A DNA stretch of 64,000 bases. It comes from an uncultured Alphaproteobacteria bacterium (lineage in GTDB: Bacteria > Pseudomonadota > Alphaproteobacteria > HIMB59 > GCA-002718135). A model generated the notes under the pieces. It had not been told where the DNA came from and did not search any database. It worked only from the letters and a program-made list of their open reading frames with translations. Location of the stretch: positions 1 to 64,000 of the forward strand of contig CACKRO010000006.1 in NCBI GenBank assembly GCA_902602695.1, in the 5' to 3' direction. Made by a program: the position numbers and the translations under genes. Positions 18,559 through 27,308 of the stretch are shown piece by piece. The stretch's first letter is position 1. Every line of letters starts with the position of its first letter.

Positions 18559-19611
18559 ATGGACATTACAATTCTAATTTTTTTATTTGGTGGTCTTTTT
18601 TTAGGTTGGTCACTTGGTGCAAATGATGCAGCAAATGTTTTTGGAACTGCAGTTGGAACACGAATGGTTAGTTTCACAAGTGCAGCAATAATTTGTAGTG
18701 TCTTTGTTATTCTAGGTGCAATTATTAGCGGAGCAGGTACAACAGAAACTTTAGGAAAGTTAGGTGCTATTAATGCATTGCCTGGTGCTTTTGCAGCATG
18801 TGTTGCTGCAGGAATATCTGTATATTTAATGACCAAAGTTGGCTTGCCTGTTTCAACAACGCAAGCGATTGTTGGAGCAATTGTTGGTTGGAATTTATAC
18901 ACGGGATCTTCAACTAACATTCAGGTTCTTGTTACTATTTTAGCAACGTGGATACTCTGCCCTATTATTGCAGGAGTTACTGCAATGGGTTTATTTACTT
19001 TTACAAAAAGATTTATTCTCAATAGAAAGTTACATATTCTCAGATTAGATGCATATACAAGAACAGCCTTGTTGCTAGCTGGTGCATTTGGTGCTTATAG
19101 TTTAGGAGCTAATAACATAGCTAATGTCATGGGAGTATTTGTTCCTATATCTCCTTTCACGGATATTAATATTTCTAACCTTTTTATTTTTTCTTCCAAA
19201 GAACAATTATTCTTACTTGGTGGTTTAGCGATAGCTGTAGGTGTTTTTACGTATTCAAAAAAGGTAATGTATACTGTCGGTAATGATTTATTAAAAATGT
19301 CTCCAGTTGCAGCATTTATCGTAGTTGTATCACATTCAATTGTTTTATTTTTATTTGCATCACAAGGGATTAGTGATTTTTTACAATCAATAAATCTTCC
19401 TTCCATTCCGCTTGTTCCTGTTTCTAGTTCTCAAGCTGTAGTTGGCGGGGTAATTGGAATTGGTCTTTTAAAAGGTGGTAAGGAAGTACAATGGTCTATT
19501 GCTGGCAGAATATCTTTGGGATGGGTAATGTTACCAATTATTGCTGCTATTGTTTCTTTAATCGTTTTATTTGTTTTAGAGAATATTTTTAATTTACAAG
19601 TATCGTTTTAA
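18559..19611 (+). CDS. pit: Inorganic phosphate transporter, PiT family
   Basis: A canonical PiT cation-coupled phosphate permease of 350 residues. Both inverted-repeat signatures are intact: GANDAANVFGTAVGT (20-34) with GLPVSTTQAIVGAIVG, and GANNIANVMGVFVP (about 183-196) with PVSSSQAVVGGVIGIG. Roughly ten membrane helices. It forms a two-gene unit with the DUF47 protein. PiT carriers also admit arsenate, which makes the nearby arsC functionally sensible. Confidence 0.95.
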   Translation: MDITILIFLFGGLFLGWSLGANDAANVFGTAVGTRMVSFTSAAIICSVFVILGAIISGAGTTETLGKLGAINALPGAFAACVAAGISVYLMTKVGLPVSTTQAIVGAIVGWNLYTGSSTNIQVLVTILATWILCPIIAGVTAMGLFTFTKRFILNRKLHILRLDAYTRTALLLAGAFGAYSLGANNIANVMGVFVPISPFTDINISNLFIFSSKEQLFLLGGLAIAVGVFTYSKKVMYTVGNDLLKMSPVAAFIVVVSHSIVLFLFASQGISDFLQSINLPSIPLVPVSSSQAVVGGVIGIGLLKGGKEVQWSIAGRISLGWVMLPIIAAIVSLIVLFVLENIFNLQVSF

Positions 19612-20132
19612 TTTACAGCTCTATAAGCAAAAATAAAATTTTCTTGCTCTTTAGATTCTATGGCGCCCTTTCGTCTTTCACGGACCAAATCAATTGCCTC
19701 TTGTTTATTGTAATTAAATTCAACAAGTAAAATAGCTGCAATCGTTCCAGCTCTTCCTTTTCCTCCACGGCAATGTAAAACTAAATTTTTTCCATCTATC
19801 AATTCGTTCTTTAATAAAACTTTGGTTGTCTCCCATTTATATTTAAAATCTTTATCTGGTGCTCCCATGTCATAGATAGGTAAGTGGTACCAATGTAATT
19901 TATGTTCATAAATACTTTTGACAAATAAAGTTTTATCACACAATTTTTCAAATTCACTATCTTCAACAAAGGAAGTGATTGAGCTACAATTATTGTTTTT
20001 AAAAAGATTAAGTTCTTCATTAAAAATTGAATCTTCAAAGGTTCCTTCTTTGTTAAGTCCTGGAAAAGAAGTTAATATTATTTTTCCTGAAAAAGATTTT
20101 GATTCAATAAAATCGTAATTGCTAAATTGCAT
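19608..20132 (-). CDS. CDKN3-like dual-specificity/tyrosine phosphatase
   Basis: A 174-residue Cys-based phosphatase with the active-site loop HCRGGKGRAG (Cys121, Arg127) and an upstream general-acid candidate in PIYDMGAPD (Asp88 or Asp93). The C-terminal RERRKGAIESKEQENFI resembles the eukaryotic CDKN3 (KAP) family, which bacteria sometimes carry. It directly follows the PhnZ-like gene (stop and start adjacent) and converges on pit with a 4-base overlap. Substrate unknown; a phosphoprotein or small phospho-compound is possible. Confidence 0.75.
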   Translation of the reverse strand: MQFSNYDFIESKSFSGKIILTSFPGLNKEGTFEDSIFNEELNLFKNNNCSSITSFVEDSEFEKLCDKTLFVKSIYEHKLHWYHLPIYDMGAPDKDFKYKWETTKVLLKNELIDGKNLVLHCRGGKGRAGTIAAILLVEFNYNKQEAIDLVRERRKGAIESKEQENFIFAYRAVN

Positions 20133-20702
20133 TTAAGACTGATTAGCTAAAAAAGACTTTCTTGCTTCTTCTAAATAAGGACGAAAATGCTCTACATCGG
20201 GTGTTTTTTTATCTAAAATTTTAGCTAAATCATCAAATCGTCTTAACTCCACAGCTTCATCCATTAACGGTTTGCTAATAAACTCATCTGCTTCGTCTTT
20301 TGTAAAAGGACCACCTTGAACTTTTAAAGAAAGTTTTGAAGCTTCGGATAAACTTTCGTAATACCCTTCTTCAACACTAGATAAATATCTTTTTGAATCA
20401 ACATGTGCCCTAATTGGTAAAATAACATCTTCGCCAAAATATTTTTTTAAGAAATCTGCACCTAAATTTTCATGATGACCGTCTTTACCTTCATGAATAG
20501 GATCGCCATCTTCGTAAATGAGATGTCCAACATCATGAAGTAAAGCTGCAGCAATTGTGGATCCGGGTAATTTATGTTGTTCCGCTAATTCAGCACACTG
20601 AAGAGCGTGTTCTAATTGGGTCACATCCTCATTGCCATACTGAATATCCGCACCTTTAGTTTTTAAAAGGTTTAACAAATAATCGACGATATTTTCTTTC
20701 AT
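20133..20702 (-). CDS. PhnZ/TmpB-type HD-domain mixed-valence di-iron oxygenase
   Basis: A 189-residue HD-fold protein. Metal ligands fit the HD oxygenase PhnZ: His32 (EHALQCA), His56-Asp57 (LLHDVGH), His76/77 (DGHHEN) and His100. Importantly Tyr22 and Glu25 (QYGNEDVTQLEH) match the Tyr-x-x-Glu signature that separates PhnZ-type oxygenases from ordinary HD phosphohydrolases. PhnZ cleaves the C-P bond of 1-hydroxy-2-aminoethylphosphonate; TmpB does the same for the N-trimethyl analogue. It is divergent from phnW, which supports phosphonate catabolism, though no PhnY*/TmpA hydroxylase gene is in the window. Confidence 0.78.
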   Translation of the reverse strand: MKENIVDYLLNLLKTKGADIQYGNEDVTQLEHALQCAELAEQHKLPGSTIAAALLHDVGHLIYEDGDPIHEGKDGHHENLGADFLKKYFGEDVILPIRAHVDSKRYLSSVEEGYYESLSEASKLSLKVQGGPFTKDEADEFISKPLMDEAVELRRFDDLAKILDKKTPDVEHFRPYLEEARKSFLANQS

Positions 20703-20797: not shown

Positions 20798-21895
20798 ATG
20801 GATAAAAAATTACTTACCCCAGGTCCTTTAACAACCTCTATGACTACAAAAGAAGCGATGCTTCATGACTGGGGTTCAAGAGATAAAAAATTTATTGATC
20901 TTAACTCATCTATTAGAGAGTCACTGGTAAAATTAATAGATGGTGAAGATAATTATCAATGTGTACCGATGCAAGGTAGTGGAACATTTGCCGTTGAGTC
21001 AATGGTCAGCTCACTTACTTCTAAAAATTCTAAAATATTAATCCTTATTAATGGTGCGTATGGGCAACGAATGAAAAAAATGTGCACTTACCTAAATAGA
21101 GATTTTATAGAGTATGAAGTTGCTGAACATGAAGTTCACGAATTAAGTAGAATTGAAGAATTAATTGATACGAATGATTTAACTCATATTTTCGCCGTAT
21201 ATTGTGAGACAACTTCAGGGATTTTAAATCCAATTGAAGAAATTGCAGATTTAGCAGAGTCAAAAAAAATCTCTTTATTTATAGATGCTATGAGTGCTTT
21301 TGGAGCTTTGCCTCTTAGCGCAAAAAAAGTAACCTTTGACGCCGTTGCTGCCTCTTCAAATAAATGTTTAGAGGGTGTTCCAGGTGTTGGTTTTATTTTA
21401 GTAAAAAATGATGTCATTCAAAATGCAAAAGGAAATAGTCATTCCTTAAGTCTTGATTTGTATGATCAATGGCAGGCAATGGAAAAAAATAAACAATGGC
21501 GATTTACACCTCCTACCCATGTATTAGCAGCTTTTAATCAAGCTATAAAAGAACATGAGAAAGAAGGAGGGGTTCAAGGAAGACATGCACGATATAAAAA
21601 AAATTGTGAGATTATATGTGTAGGGATGAAAGAATTGGGTTTTGAACAACTACTTCCAGATAATTTACAAGCACCTATAATTATTACCTTTAAGCAGCCA
21701 AATGATTCGAGTTTTAATTTTGATAAATTTTATAATGCGTTGAGTGACAAAGATTTTTTAATTTATCCAGGTAAATTAACGGTAGCAGAAACCTTTAGAA
21801 TTGGTTGTATTGGTAATTTAAATGAAAATGATATGCATGATACTATAGGAGCTGTTAAAGAAGTAATTCAAGAATTAGCACTCGAAATAAATTAA
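20798..21895 (+). CDS. phnW: 2-aminoethylphosphonate:pyruvate transaminase PhnW
   Basis: A PLP-dependent class V aminotransferase of 365 residues converting 2-aminoethylphosphonate and pyruvate to phosphonoacetaldehyde and alanine. The N-terminus LLTPGPLTTSMTTKEAMLHD-WGSRD is the family hallmark; Asp163 (FIDAMSAFG) and the Schiff-base Lys189 (SSNKCLEG) are present. It starts a three-gene plus-strand unit and its product feeds PhnY encoded at 24628. Confidence 0.93.
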   Translation: MDKKLLTPGPLTTSMTTKEAMLHDWGSRDKKFIDLNSSIRESLVKLIDGEDNYQCVPMQGSGTFAVESMVSSLTSKNSKILILINGAYGQRMKKMCTYLNRDFIEYEVAEHEVHELSRIEELIDTNDLTHIFAVYCETTSGILNPIEEIADLAESKKISLFIDAMSAFGALPLSAKKVTFDAVAASSNKCLEGVPGVGFILVKNDVIQNAKGNSHSLSLDLYDQWQAMEKNKQWRFTPPTHVLAAFNQAIKEHEKEGGVQGRHARYKKNCEIICVGMKELGFEQLLPDNLQAPIIITFKQPNDSSFNFDKFYNALSDKDFLIYPGKLTVAETFRIGCIGNLNENDMHDTIGAVKEVIQELALEIN

Positions 21896-21899
21896 CTTA

Positions 21900-22532
21900 A
21901 TGACACAAGAAATTGAAATTCCATTAATTCAAGCGACCAATGAAAATCTTCAAGGGTATGGTTATCTTATTGATTCATTTGAAAAAAGTGAAATAGAAAT
22001 TGTTACATGGCCAAAACAAGGTTGGAGAGAAATTGAAGAGGGGACAGGAAATGAAGGTGGAACAACAGAAGGTTCTTTTGATACGTGGTGGCAAGGAGAT
22101 ACACTTTATGGGCAAAATAATGCGGTAGAACATAAAAGTGATTACGAAATTGATGGAAAATATATTCTTGGATATTCAACTAATCCTGACAATGAATTAC
22201 AGAAACAAAACTACAATCATCCAGATAAAATTTATTTATGGCACGCCAACTATCATCCAGATGGTGGTCAACTTTTTTTTCCTAAAGAGAACAAGCCTTT
22301 TATATGTCCATTAGCATTACCAACTGATGATATAAAATTAGAAAATTTTAAAGCATTTTACTGTGATGGTTCTAAGGGTCTTTATATCCATCCAAACATA
22401 TGGCACGAAGGTGTTTTCCCAGTCTCTGAAAAGCAATCTTTTGACGGAAAACAGGGAAAAGTTCATGCAAGAGTAAGCATTGATTTAAAAGAAGAGTTTA
22501 ATAAATATATCTATTTTAAAACTCAAATTTAA
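21900..22532 (+). CDS. Ureidoglycolate lyase (AllA)-like cupin-fold protein
   Basis: A 210-residue protein resembling the AllA/ureidoglycolate hydrolase family: LWHANYHPDGGQLFFP and YIHPNIWHEGVFPV look like the two cupin-like metal/substrate segments. No allantoin or purine-ring degradation genes are nearby, and it sits four bases after phnW, so a role in phosphonate or related carboxylate chemistry is more likely than ureidoglycolate cleavage. Family assignment is moderate; function is inferred only from context. Confidence 0.6.
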   Translation: MTQEIEIPLIQATNENLQGYGYLIDSFEKSEIEIVTWPKQGWREIEEGTGNEGGTTEGSFDTWWQGDTLYGQNNAVEHKSDYEIDGKYILGYSTNPDNELQKQNYNHPDKIYLWHANYHPDGGQLFFPKENKPFICPLALPTDDIKLENFKAFYCDGSKGLYIHPNIWHEGVFPVSEKQSFDGKQGKVHARVSIDLKEEFNKYIYFKTQI

Positions 22533-22554
22533 TTAGTACTAATTAATTTAAACT

Positions 22555-23349
22555 ATGAAAATTATTCATTTATCTGATCCACATATTTATACTGATAAAA
22601 TACATGGTATTGATCCAGTAGATAGATTCAAAAAAGCATTAGATCATATTATAATAAATCATAGCGATGCTGATCTTTTTGCAATTACAGGAGATATTAC
22701 TGATCTAGGAGATAAAGAATCATATCAATTATTTATAGAGATAATTAAAGAAAAAAAATTACCTCAAAAATTAAATCCTCAACTTATTATTGGTAACCAT
22801 GACAACCGAGAGGAATTTAAAATTAACTTCCCTTCAGTGGAAACAGATAACAATGGTTTTGTTCAATATTTTATCGACAGAGAGGATAAGAGATTTATTT
22901 TTATCGATACAAATTTAATCAATACACATGCAGGTCATTATTGTGAGGATAGACAAGAATGGTTCACAAAAATATTAAATGAAACATCTGAAGATAAAAA
23001 GATTTATGTTTTTATGCACCATAATCCTCTTGCTTTGGTAAAGGATGAAAGTGATGGAATAGGGTTAAAACAAAAAGAAGAGTTTAAGAAAATTATATTT
23101 AGCAATAAAGAAAAAATTAAGCATATTTTCTTTGGCCATCAACATATTACAAGTTCTGGTTCATATGGCGGTATTACTTTTTCCTCTCCAAGAAGTACTT
23201 GGTCTCCTCTGATACCTAACTTTTCAAATGAATATCGTTTAGGAACGGCTAATACAGATACAAATTATAATATTGCAATAATTCGATCAGATGCTTTAGT
23301 TATTCATACGGAAGATTTTTTAAAAACAAATATAAATTGGTTTGAATAA
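22555..23349 (+). CDS. Class III phosphodiesterase, CpdA/GpdQ-like
   Basis: A 264-residue calcineurin-like phosphoesterase with the complete metal set: LSDPHIY (D8-x-H10), TGDITDLG, GNHDNREEF, MHHNPL and FGHQHITS. The pattern fits class III cyclic-nucleotide or glycerophosphodiester phosphodiesterases (CpdA, GpdQ, Rv0805). As third gene of the phnW unit it may hydrolyse a phosphodiester or phosphonate ester to feed phosphorus acquisition. cAMP turnover is the alternative. Confidence 0.8.
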   Translation: MKIIHLSDPHIYTDKIHGIDPVDRFKKALDHIIINHSDADLFAITGDITDLGDKESYQLFIEIIKEKKLPQKLNPQLIIGNHDNREEFKINFPSVETDNNGFVQYFIDREDKRFIFIDTNLINTHAGHYCEDRQEWFTKILNETSEDKKIYVFMHHNPLALVKDESDGIGLKQKEEFKKIIFSNKEKIKHIFFGHQHITSSGSYGGITFSSPRSTWSPLIPNFSNEYRLGTANTDTNYNIAIIRSDALVIHTEDFLKTNINWFE

Positions 23350-23356
23350 AAAATAA

Positions 23357-24463
23357 TTATTTTTTTTCTATTACAAAAATTTCATTATTAAAATAAAGTC
23401 CCTTATTTTTAGTAACTACGTTTTGAACGATTTTTTCATAGTTTTTAGATTTTTCTATTTTTATTACTTTATCATCATCCATTTGATTGACATATATGGA
23501 TGCATTCCAAGCAGAAAAGACTAATGATGTAGCTATACCGCCACTAATTTCTGTTGGTAGCGCTCTTAATTTACACTTAATAATTCTTTTTTCTCCAAAA
23601 GATAAACTTCTTAATAAGTTTTTATCTAAGTTCTTCTTAAGATAGGAAATAATACTATTCCCAAGAGAAGGAAAAGGGTTCTCTTTTGGCCAAATTTTAC
23701 GGATTATTTCATTAGCAGGATCTTTTCCTGAAGCATGAATAGTTAATAATTTCCCTTTTGGTTTTAAGGCTTTAATCATTGGTTCGATGACATATTTTGA
23801 TTTTTTTTCTGCTGAAATTCTTGACCGATAAGGCTGTGATGCAATTATAAGATCAAATTTATTATCTGATTTTTTTTTGGTAGGTATTAATTCATTAACA
23901 TTAAATTCTTGATCTTCCCTGTAGATAACCATCACTGAAGGCTCTTTATAAGTATGGTTACCTGATTTTTTATTAATTTCTATATTCCATTTTTTTTCTA
24001 AAAAATCATTTTGTTTTCTTAACTGTTGAGCAAATTCTAGAGAGGTGTCACCTTTTAATTTTATAATATTCCAATTAATTTTTTTCTGTTTAACTTCATT
24101 TTTTGATTTTAGGTTGGCGGCTTCAGCATAGTGTAAATTTGAAATGACAAAAACAGTATTCTTATGCTCAACAAACCTATCAGGTAATTTTTCTAAACCT
24201 AATCTTACATCTTCAATACTTATTTCTTTTGTACAAACTAATAAAGGAATATTAGGCAGAGCCTCGTGGCACTGACGCATAACATTCATAAGTAAAGAAC
24301 CATCACCCATACCAGCATCAAATATTTTTATTCCTGGTTTTTGTGGTTTAATTTTATTTACGTGAGGACGTATCGCATCTGCTATTTGATTTTTTTCATT
24401 TGTGGTCGTTACAAACAATAAGTATTTTTGTCTGTTATCATAAAATCTAAAATTTTTTTTCAT
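23357..24463 (-). CDS. SAM-dependent methyltransferase-like protein in the phosphonate operon
   Basis: A 368-residue Rossmann-fold protein with SAM-binding motif I IFDAGMGDGSLL (about 46-57) and a later FDLIIASQPYRS segment resembling motif IV. The N-terminus RFYDNRQKYLLFVTTTNEK is distinctive. A C-terminal part (after about 240) handles an unknown substrate. It is downstream of phnA-phnY on the same strand and converges on the phosphodiesterase gene with seven bases between. I do not recognise a characterised relative; it could methylate a phosphonate, a lipid or a small amine. Confidence 0.65.
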   Translation of the reverse strand: MKKNFRFYDNRQKYLLFVTTTNEKNQIADAIRPHVNKIKPQKPGIKIFDAGMGDGSLLMNVMRQCHEALPNIPLLVCTKEISIEDVRLGLEKLPDRFVEHKNTVFVISNLHYAEAANLKSKNEVKQKKINWNIIKLKGDTSLEFAQQLRKQNDFLEKKWNIEINKKSGNHTYKEPSVMVIYREDQEFNVNELIPTKKKSDNKFDLIIASQPYRSRISAEKKSKYVIEPMIKALKPKGKLLTIHASGKDPANEIIRKIWPKENPFPSLGNSIISYLKKNLDKNLLRSLSFGEKRIIKCKLRALPTEISGGIATSLVFSAWNASIYVNQMDDDKVIKIEKSKNYEKIVQNVVTKNKGLYFNNEIFVIEKK

Positions 24464-24627: not shown

Positions 24628-26070
24628 TTACCAGGGCAAAGAAAATGTCTTAACGTTGGTAAAGCTTTTCATTGCTTCAATTACACCCTCTTTATACCCC
24701 AAGCCTGAATCCTTAATTCCACCAAATGGGGACATCTCAATTCTGTATCCAGGAACTTCCCAAATATTTACAGTTCCAACATTTAGACCTTGGATATATT
24801 TTTTAGCTCTCATAAAGTTATTTGTACATACACCAGATGATAATCCAAATGCTGTTGAATTAGAAATCTTCAACACAGAGTCATCGTCATTTGGTACACG
24901 GATGATCGGAATAACTGGACCAAAAGTTTCTTCTAAAACTAATTCACTTTTAGGATCGACATTGTCTACTACTATAGGGGGCAACAATGCACCATTTCTT
25001 CCAGGATGATATAAAATTTTAGCACCGTCTTCTTCAGCCATAGAAACTCTTTTATCAAAAAGTTCTGCAGCTTCAGCATTAACAACTGTACCTAAATCTG
25101 TTTCCATGTTCATAGGATCACCAAATTTAATTTTCTTAGCACGCTCGAGGGCCAATTCAACAAACTGATCTGCTATCGACTCTTGAACTAATATTCTTTT
25201 AACAGCTGTACAACGTTGTCCAGAGTTTTTTGTAGCTCCGGTTACAGCTAGCTCAACAGCTTTTTTAAGATCATCAGAATCTAAATCATTTAAAATAATT
25301 AATGGATCATTTCCACCAAGTTCAAGAACTGTTCTTTTGTATCCAGCTTGTTCAGCAATTAATTTTCCCACACCAACACTGCCTGTAAAAGTAATTAGAT
25401 CGATATTTGGATTTTTAATCATTTCCGATCCAATATCTTGAGGCCATCCAGTCACAACTGAAAACATTTCTGGTGGTAAGCCAGCTTCGTATAAAACATC
25501 AGCAAGAACCATTACTGTTAAGGGAGTTAATTCTGTCTGCTTACACACTGTACAATTATTAGTTGCAATCGAAGGCGCAATTTTGTGGGCTACCATATTT
25601 AACGGGTGGTTAAATGGAGTGATTGCTGAAATAGCTGTTAATGGCTCTCTTATGGTAAATATTTTTCTCGCTTTTCCATGTGGAGTTAAATCACAAGAAA
25701 AAATTTCTCCATCATCAAGAATACAAAGTTGTGCCGTTAAAGTAAATACATCAAATGCCCTTCCAACTTCGTATAAAGAATCTTGTTTTGAGATACCAAG
25801 TTCTAAAGTAATAATATCTGAGATTTCGTCTTTCCTTTTTACTAGTACTTCTGCTGCAGTTTGAAGAATTTTTTGTCTCTCATATCTAGTAAGTTTTGGC
25901 TGGTAATTTGCAGCAATATCAAAAGCCTTCCTAGCATGCTCTGCAGTACCGGCTGGAACCGTTCCGATTACTTCACCAGTGAAGGGGTACTCAACATTTA
26001 TTGTTTTATCTGAAGTAACTTTTTCTCCAGCTATACGCATTGCTTCATTAATCATTTTTTTGTGCATCAT
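24628..26070 (-). CDS. phnY: Phosphonoacetaldehyde dehydrogenase PhnY
   Basis: An NAD-dependent aldehyde dehydrogenase of 480 residues that oxidises phosphonoacetaldehyde to phosphonoacetate. Catalytic residues are visible: Asn154 (FNHPLNM), Glu250 (LELGGND) and Cys287 ([11 protein letters not shown]). It follows phnA with a 4-base overlap, and phnW lies close by, giving the complete PhnW-PhnY-PhnA route. The name rests on this context; the family has many other substrates. Confidence 0.88.
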
Positions 26071-27308
26071 AGGGCTCCATTAATTGCATAGTAAAATGCA
26101 TCATAGTTATATAATTGTTTACTAGGATCTAAGTTTTGTAATTTTAAGTTTGATATGAATGGAACTTCTCTTTCATGGAGTCCGCCATGTGAACGTAAAG
26201 GTTCATTTAATCCAGAAAGATTGTGCTTATCTTCAGATGAACCAATAGTCATAAATTCTGAAGACATACATATTATATCCCCCATTCTGTCAGGAGGTAA
26301 ATTATAAGTAGAGCATCCTTCTTCTTTTGTTAAAACAACTTCTATATCTTTTATTTCTTTGATAGCATTTACAACTGAATCTACCTTGCTCTTGTCTTCC
26401 AAATAAATTGTTGCAAAAGAACCAAGTGAACCATGATGAACAACATATGGATCTGTAATTGGTAGAATAACTTTAGCCATGTTTGGTTCAAATTTTTTAT
26501 CTAAATAATCTTGTAAGAATATTGCATTTGGGGAACCATCTTCTTTTGATTTTGGTTTCATACCATGATCTGCTGTGATGATTATAGAAACATTCTCTTT
26601 ATTTAAAAGACCAATATATTTATCAAACATTGCATAAAATTTATTGGCCGTTTCATTTCCCGGTGCATATTTGTGCTGTATATAATCCGTTGTCGATAAA
26701 TACATAATATTTGGTTTAAATTCTTCAAGAAGTTTTACACCTGCAGCCATTACAAACTCTGAAAGTCCTTCAGAATATACTTCTGGGACTGGCATCCCTA
26801 ACCAATCGTTTACGTTATCTATACCATTGAGATCTTTTGTTGCTTGATCAGATTTTTCAGCAGAAAAACATATAGCGCGATCATCATCAAAAGTTAAACC
26901 ATTACCCAATAAAGTTCTTAATTTATCCTTGGCGGTAACAAGAGCAATCTTAGATCCTAATTTATAAAATTTTTCAAAAATTGTCGGCGCTCGCATATAT
27001 TTTGGATCATTCATCATTACTTCTTCACCAGTTTCAGGCGTATAAAAAAAATTTCCACATATACCGTGAACAGCACTTGGTTGCCCTGTTACTATAGAAA
27101 TATTGTTTGGATTTGTAAAACTTGGAATAGCACTGTGAACAAGAAGGTTTTCTCCAGTTGCAATTAATTTATCAAGATTAGGAGTAAGATTTGATTTGGA
27201 TGCTTCTTCAAGATACTCTTTTTGACTACCATCAAGGCAGATCACAATTGCAGTTTTTGAGAAAGTACTTGGATATTTTCTTTTATTAACTTCTAGATTA
27301 TCGGACAC
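26067..27308 (-). CDS. phnA: Phosphonoacetate hydrolase PhnA
   Basis: An alkaline-phosphatase superfamily enzyme of 413 residues that hydrolyses phosphonoacetate to acetate and phosphate. Metal Asp26 (VICLDGS), the nucleophilic Thr65 (PSFTNPNN), the [18 protein letters not shown] segment, and distal metal ligands in ITADHGM and RSHGGLHE are all present. The motifs fit PhnA better than nucleotide pyrophosphatases. It heads the minus-strand phnA-phnY unit. Confidence 0.93.

Follow-up and report, generated by a model that had tools for sequence, protein, structure and literature searches.

The window, a 64,000-nucleotide stretch of DNA, comes from the 1.28-Mb draft genome of an uncultured marine alphaproteobacterium, a member of a clade that, by genome naming, would be HIMB59/AEGEAN-169. 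The genes considered here are the following:

19608-20132: dual-specificity-phosphatase-like gene that follows the HD oxygenase gene (family scan)
20133..20702, minus strand: phosphonate-degradation-type HD-domain oxygenase, transcribed divergently from phnW (TIGR03276, 202.6 bits, cut-off 214.6)
20798..21895, plus strand: phnW, 2-aminoethylphosphonate:pyruvate aminotransferase, 365 aa (NF010006, 508.7 bits, cut-off 296; TIGR02326, 464.5 bits; both above cut-off)
21900..22532, plus strand: AllA-like cupin gene, 210 aa, ATG start (partial match to PF04115)
22555..23349, plus strand: class III metallo-phosphodiesterase (PDE) gene, GpdQ/Rv0805-like, 264 aa, ATG start (calcineurin-like phosphoesterase PF00149, 62 bits)
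23357-24463, minus strand: weak methyltransferase-like gene adjoining the PDE gene (PF13847, 20.5 bits, below cut-off)
24628..26070, minus strand: phnY, phosphonoacetaldehyde dehydrogenase (TIGR03250, 796 bits, above cut-off)
26067..27308, minus strand: phnA, phosphonoacetate hydrolase (TIGR02335, 468.9 bits, above cut-off)

As phnW, phnY and phnA are all found in the window, the PhnW-PhnY-PhnA route is complete, and the locus itself is an ordinary operon of a known pathway. The phnW, AllA-like and PDE genes all lie on the plus strand, separated by gaps of 4 and 22 bases, and form a probable operon. An initial annotation of this DNA had singled out the two genes that follow phnW; its coordinates, strand and gaps proved exact, and its names for both are right at the family level (PF04115 and PF00149). 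Two other genes of the list are retained in relatives, the dual-specificity-phosphatase-like gene in much of the clade and the gene at 23357-24463, which had no match in the NCBIfam scan, beside the PDE gene in most relatives.

Conservation of the gene order in the clade

A profile query with the AllA-like gene was used to collect named loci. We compared the best 80 of a larger number of matches, a sample that is skewed to close relatives because only the best matches entered it; the closest, from Pelagibacteraceae bacterium AG-337-I02, is 100% identical. In 75 of these 80 loci, the gene immediately before the AllA-like gene is phnW, usually with a gap of 7 bases and in seven cases with a 1-base overlap. 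Three of the other five (L104, L117 and L136) are at a contig end, where just the final residues of phnW are readable in L104. The genuine exceptions are L131 and L133, both labelled Gammaproteobacteria, in which the AllA-like gene is found without phosphonate context.

In the same best 80 loci, the PDE gene directly follows the AllA-like gene in 53, lies behind an insertion of 3.2 or 6.2 kb in 13 and was not found in 14, three of which have less than 3 kb of downstream sequence. Two types of insertion occur: a minus-strand set resembling UgpE-UgpA-UgpB (top NCBIfam scores 137, 135 and 135 bits, all below cut-off) and a cassette that encodes GDPD, permeases, a binding protein and a UgpC-like ATPase. 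Replacement of PDE by GDPD was ruled out, the PDE gene being present beyond the GDPD cassette. The pairing of phnW with the AllA-like gene persists in clade loci where the PDE, transporter and HD genes vary. Thus, these two genes represent the constant unit of the locus, and their arrangement is more than chance. The order phnW-AllA-like-PDE is also kept in the clade, so that the possibility, raised by the initial annotation, of an order unique to this genome can be set aside.

Several loci show further variations. L135 has phnW-AllA-like-phnA-phnY in this order and on a single strand. On the small contig L136 (49-1907), labelled Methylococcales, phnX (TIGR01422, 299.6 bits, above cut-off) comes after the AllA-like gene; the opposite strand carries Pit- and PhoU-like genes, and the bin label may be wrong. 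A putative aminophosphonate FAD oxidoreductase (TIGR03329, 590 bits, cut-off 632.8) is encoded upstream of phnW and the AllA-like gene at positions 269-1675 of L120. In L025 (1636-6524), the same pair is directly preceded by an SDR gene and by genes for a betaine-type ABC transporter (ProV-ProX-ProW-like) that might import methylated aminoethylphosphonates; a similar proX-proW-phnW order is seen in L130, L132, L134 and L137. A search of 61 genomes found AllA-like genes, full or nearly full, in most genomes of the window's own genus and in none of the 24 genomes of the sister family f2, including two (G037 and G039) that encode PhnA.

The AllA-like protein and its distribution

The AllA-like protein matches PF04115 (Ureidogly_lyase) in its C-terminal half alone (40.9 bits, cut-off 23) and scores far below every NCBIfam cut-off for ureidoglycolate lyases (best 32.1 bits, cut-off 230). 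The AllA encoded elsewhere in the same genome also stays below that cut-off, at 137.5 bits, but matches the model over nearly its full length; its gene (L259, 5521-6015) belongs to a purine cluster with allantoicase and OHCU decarboxylase genes and, as read from the list of open reading frames, xanthine dehydrogenase-like genes. An AlphaFold2 model of the AllA-like protein, built with 15 clade sequences (pLDDT 83.6), adopts the AllA cupin fold, matching 2bdr over 147 residues with Z 17.6 and rmsd 2.4. Among solved structures, ureidoglycolate lyases come first (Z 17.6 to 14.9), followed by DUF4867 (10.2) and other cupins (7.6 at most). The AllA motif E-x-H-P-x-G-x-Q aligns with N-x-H-P-D-G-G-Q of the AllA-like protein, with Asn117 in all 15 clade rows at a position occupied by Glu in the aligned AllA chains and in the genome's own AllA. 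This Glu, two residues before the His of HPxGxQ, is presumed to be catalytic, and Asn117, judged by its position, would replace one Glu metal ligand. Because of the separate allA and the invariant Asn for Glu, we do not refer to this protein as AllA.

We analysed co-occurrence with phosphonate genes over 385 class genomes, with one draw for all queries and E-value thresholds of up to 1e-12 for the AllA-like protein and up to 1e-30 for PDE. There were 23 carriers of the AllA-like gene, 81 of PhnW, 44 of PhnA and 31 of PDE. PhnW was found in 20 of the 23 AllA-like genomes (Fisher OR 33, p 4e-12; OR 30 without the window's genus) and PhnA in 19 (OR 64, p 1e-16; OR 57 without that genus), with p-values that are optimistic because the genomes are related and not independent. 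The AllA-like gene is carried by 18 of the 34 genomes with both PhnW and PhnA, by 2 of 47 with PhnW only and by 1 of 10 with PhnA only; the two AllA-like genomes with neither, G253 and G345, contain the HD oxygenase gene, so that at least one of PhnW, PhnA and HD is present in 23/23. Most AllA-like genomes whose phnW region was opened have phnA and phnY homologs after phnW. At the level of families (about 172 in total, a figure taken from the highest label), 10 of the 12 with the AllA-like gene contain a PhnA genome and 11 a PhnW genome. As a partner of the AllA-like protein, PhnX was ruled out, being present in 1 of the 23 AllA-like genomes (60 genomes searched). PDE was used as an approximate reference for effects of lifestyle and genome size, and its odds ratios were 2.2 for PhnW and 5.4 for PhnA (1.8 and 4.4 without the own genus). 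With this control showing some enrichment with PhnA as well, signals of this kind are due in part to lifestyle or genome size.

Among 21 candidate stretches of viral contigs there were no AllA-like relatives. A draw of 115 genomes from the phylum gave two matches, both already within the class set; it says little on other classes, as the rows listed were all from the window's own or the same class.

Outside the clade, we inspected 20 AllA-like genes (from 21 genomes, with G365 left out) and up to about 20 kb around each, and found phnW near none of them. A divergent LysR gene adjoins six of these unlinked copies (L146, L149, L151, L152, L154 and L156), four of them from a single family (f38). 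The best NCBIfam match of all six regulators is TIGR03339, the LysR of aminoethylphosphonate catabolism, at 259-272 bits, which is below the cut-off of 341 and well above the runner-up (145-160 bits); two LysR proteins encoded next to phnW score 339.8 and 342.4 on this model and an unrelated LysR from L140 scores 77.5. Seven records of Paraburkholderia plasmids carry an AllA-like copy that is about 51% identical; no phosphonate genes were seen near it in the one annotated record (a second opened record is unannotated).

Thus, it is well supported that an AllA-fold protein accompanies PhnW-PhnY-PhnA across Alphaproteobacteria, mostly unlinked. Its fold, its conservation beside phnW in the clade, the genome-wide co-occurrence and the phn-type regulators make it quite likely that this route, which degrades aminoethylphosphonate via phosphonoacetate, has in the AllA-like protein a helper not recognised so far. 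The alternative that these genes occur together because of large genomes and a shared lifestyle, the clade operon being a historical accident, could draw on the enrichment of the PDE control with PhnA and on the relatedness of the genomes. We regard it as quite improbable, given that the enrichment of the AllA-like gene far exceeds that of the control (OR 21 between them outside the own genus, p 2e-5), the family-level counts hold, the window's own draft genome is just 1.28 Mb and the phn-type LysR neighbours would need another reason. Still less credible, and in our view very improbable, is an ordinary ureidoglycolate lyase or other ureide enzyme that stands in the phnW operon by happenstance. 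The shared AllA fold and Pfam family would agree with such an enzyme, and so would the arrangement in L140 (8060-10049), where the unlinked copy is preceded by a gene for a Zn-hydantoinase/allantoate-amidohydrolase relative, hinting at ureido chemistry instead; however, the separate allA in the purine cluster, the scores far below the lyase cut-offs, the invariant Asn for Glu and the co-occurrence with phosphonate genes all speak against it. A relative of the L140 hydantoinase gene is also found in L131, about 7 kb from the AllA-like gene and beside pyrimidine-degradation-like genes.

The HD-domain oxygenase offers another partner, in that the AllA-like protein might make or process the 1-hydroxyphosphonate cleaved by the HD enzyme and have no part in PhnW-PhnY-PhnA. 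A search for the HD gene in 183 of the 385 genomes (the 23 AllA-like genomes, all 70 further genomes with PhnW or PhnA, and a random 90 of the 291 remaining) found it in 21 of the 23 AllA-like genomes, including the two without PhnW and PhnA, compared with 18/70 and 9/90 in the other two groups (27/160 without the AllA-like gene), and the window's own HD gene is transcribed divergently from phnW and the AllA-like gene. Nevertheless, among genomes with both PhnW and PhnA, the HD gene is present in 16 of 18 AllA-like carriers and in 10 of the 16 others (p 0.08), which is no clear separation; it is not adjacent to phnW and the AllA-like gene in several clade loci, and dioxygenases of the PhyH (20/20 genomes searched) and TauD (19/20) types, which could feed the HD enzyme, are present in the genus. 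This partnership therefore appears distinctly unlikely, and we retain the helper of PhnW-PhnY-PhnA as the preferred reading. The PhyH-family dioxygenases are striking for such small genomes, with 8 matches in the window's own draft genome and up to 11 in a relative (own genome and 19 genus relatives).

The phosphodiesterase and its neighbours

Class III metallo-phosphodiesterases are recognized by the metal-ligand motifs D-x-H, GDxxD, GNHD, HH and GHxH, all of which were found in PDE, and residues D8, H10, D47, N81, H155, H195 and H197 are invariant in 19 clade rows. Comparison with PDB sequences gave GpdQ as the best match (E 1.8e-12), followed by Rv0805 (E 1.5e-11), and comparison of folds ended in a tie (Z 29.2 for Rv0805 and 28.7 for GpdQ).

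Besides the UgpBAE-like or GDPD-UgpC-like cassettes that separate the AllA-like and PDE genes in 13 of the best 80 named loci, transporter (ugp-type) genes were found within 1.5 kb in 16 of 28 loci of PDE relatives from the class outside the genus. Plasmid relatives of PDE were matched in 379 records, and in all five annotated ones that were opened PDE ends an ABC-transporter operon annotated as sugar-type; the binding protein of one such operon has UgpB as its sole NCBIfam match, a weak one (61 bits). Outside the clade, PDE is weakly linked to phnW or phnA. Since its site is common to UgpBAE-like transporters and GDPD, diester scavenging fits PDE best, and the protein, an optional neighbour of phnW, is probably a GpdQ-type diesterase belonging to a module for diester scavenging at this shared genomic site. 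It would hydrolyse glycerophospho- and perhaps glycerophosphono-diesters and could in this way feed aminoethylphosphonate to PhnW; specificity of this candidate for phosphonate esters is possible.

PDE might instead be a cyclic-nucleotide phosphodiesterase, acting on cAMP or 2',3'-cNMP and devoid of a nutritional role. This is consistent with its best NCBIfam matches, SpdA (2',3'-cyclic nucleotide phosphodiesterase, 181 bits, cut-off 400) and then CpdA (65.7 bits, cut-off 225), both below cut-off, with the tie between the Rv0805 and GpdQ folds and with the three nearest relatives in the class by E-value (39-41% identical), which have no ugp-type genes in their 1.5-kb flanks. The UgpBAE-like and GDPD cassettes beside PDE in the clade and the ABC-transporter operons of its plasmid and class relatives argue against it, and we consider a cyclic-nucleotide substrate rather unlikely, scavenging of diesters remaining our choice.

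Whatever its substrate, PDE is dispensable and elsewhere not specifically tied to phnW. The suggestion of the initial annotation that both genes extend aminoethylphosphonate breakdown survives in part: for the AllA-like gene, it agrees with the co-occurrence with phnW, phnA and HD and with the phn-type LysR genes, while PDE is weakly linked to phnW or phnA outside the clade and missing from some loci that keep phnW and the AllA-like gene. The opening of an ester is plausible for a GpdQ-like PDE at a site shared with UgpBAE-like and GDPD cassettes, phosphonate esters being possible substrates. The idea that the AllA-like protein processes a carboxylate released by PDE found no support, because the AllA-like gene occurs without the PDE gene. 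The initial annotation was thus right to single out the AllA-like gene, partly right on PDE and probably wrong in tying the two proteins together.

Proposed roles and comparison with known systems

Taken as a whole, the phnW operon is more probably than otherwise a phosphonate-catabolism unit with two independent add-ons, the AllA-like helper and the scavenging PDE. As to the reaction of the AllA-like protein, AllA itself splits ureidoglycolate, a gem-hydroxy adduct, into glyoxylate and urea. Action on a gem-hydroxy adduct of phosphonoacetaldehyde would be the simplest reading of fold and context; it is a guess by analogy, and we hold it unlikely to be right. The AllA-like protein would then split or form such an adduct, e.g. 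a carbinolamine R-NH-CH(OH)-CH2-PO3, and free phosphonoacetaldehyde would reach PhnY from N-substituted aminoethylphosphonates; alternatively, it would rescue aldehyde trapped by amines. In the broadest version, a speculative proposal that we consider rather unlikely, this cupin family of Alphaproteobacteria, labelled ureidoglycolate lyase and encoded mostly away from phn clusters, would be a missing enzyme of natural phosphonate breakdown. Acting on gem-hydroxy adducts of phosphonoacetaldehyde, it would give bacteria with PhnW-PhnY-PhnA, including the abundant HIMB59, access to N-modified aminoethylphosphonates beyond the reach of the known helpers. Surveys restricted to phn clusters would overlook a helper that tracks the phosphonoacetate branch but is, as a rule, encoded elsewhere. 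Should a modified aminoethylphosphonate prove to be its substrate, the range of phosphonates that bacteria of ocean and soil are known to have at their disposal would be wider, and a misleading annotation as ureidoglycolate lyase would be corrected.

According to a study of AEGEAN169 (Ca. Indicimonas), a pathway from 2-AEP to acetate and phosphate is found in over 85% of clade members, with transcripts detected (PMC11366302); neither ureidoglycolate nor phosphodiesterase is mentioned in its main text. The HIMB59 phosphonate island described in PMC10734472 is a C-P lyase island and different from the phnW-AllA-like locus. In the open-licence literature, we found no mention of the AllA-like gene as a phosphonate helper, which does not imply its absence from print, and no paper that combines ureidoglycolate lyase, cupin and phosphonate; three papers contain both ureidoglycolate lyase and aminoethylphosphonate. 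Neither ureidoglycolate nor cupin is mentioned in the main text of PMC12366243, PMC8154272, PMC8316502 or PMC9381506, and ureidoglycolate is likewise missing from PMC10734472 and PMC10308909. Nothing on point was found there for GpdQ acting on phosphonate monoesters or for ugp genes with a metallophosphoesterase, PMC12718374 included.

Of the known systems, GpdQ and Rv0805 share with PDE the class III phosphodiesterase fold and the metal-ligand positions; they are about 20% identical to it in the structural alignment, and PDE differs in belonging to an operon with phnW. AllA (PF04115; 2bdr, 1xsq, 1xsr and 1yqc) shares with the AllA-like protein the cupin fold over 141-147 residues (Z 14.9-17.6) and the H-P-x-G-x-Q motif plus a later W-H. 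However, AllA has about 165 aa and the AllA-like protein 210 aa, and the latter is distinguished by the invariant Asn for Glu, by co-occurrence with phosphonate genes and by a window without a purine cluster.

In PMC11968277, ureidoglycolate lyases are described as Ni-binding enzymes that catalyse elimination reactions, and DUF4867 as having a 2His-2Glu metal site. The DUF4867 protein SftX of sulfoglycolysis, considered with the DUF4867 structures 9gyz and 9gyy (Z 10.2 to 9gyz), provides a parallel, an AllA-related cupin that accompanies a sulfonate pathway and whose reaction is unproven, although it represents another family and another pathway and has the 2His-2Glu site. Known counterparts of the proposed helper are PbfA, PbfB-D and PbfF, which a review and discovery papers describe as accessory genes of phnW-phnX or phnW-phnY-phnA clusters (PMC10574752; PMC12366243). 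Like the AllA-like protein as proposed here, they are accessory to aminoethylphosphonate breakdown; unlike it, they are a PLP lyase (PbfA), FAD oxidoreductases (PbfB-D) and an NAD racemase (PbfF), whereas the AllA-like protein is a cupin that is usually unlinked outside its clade.
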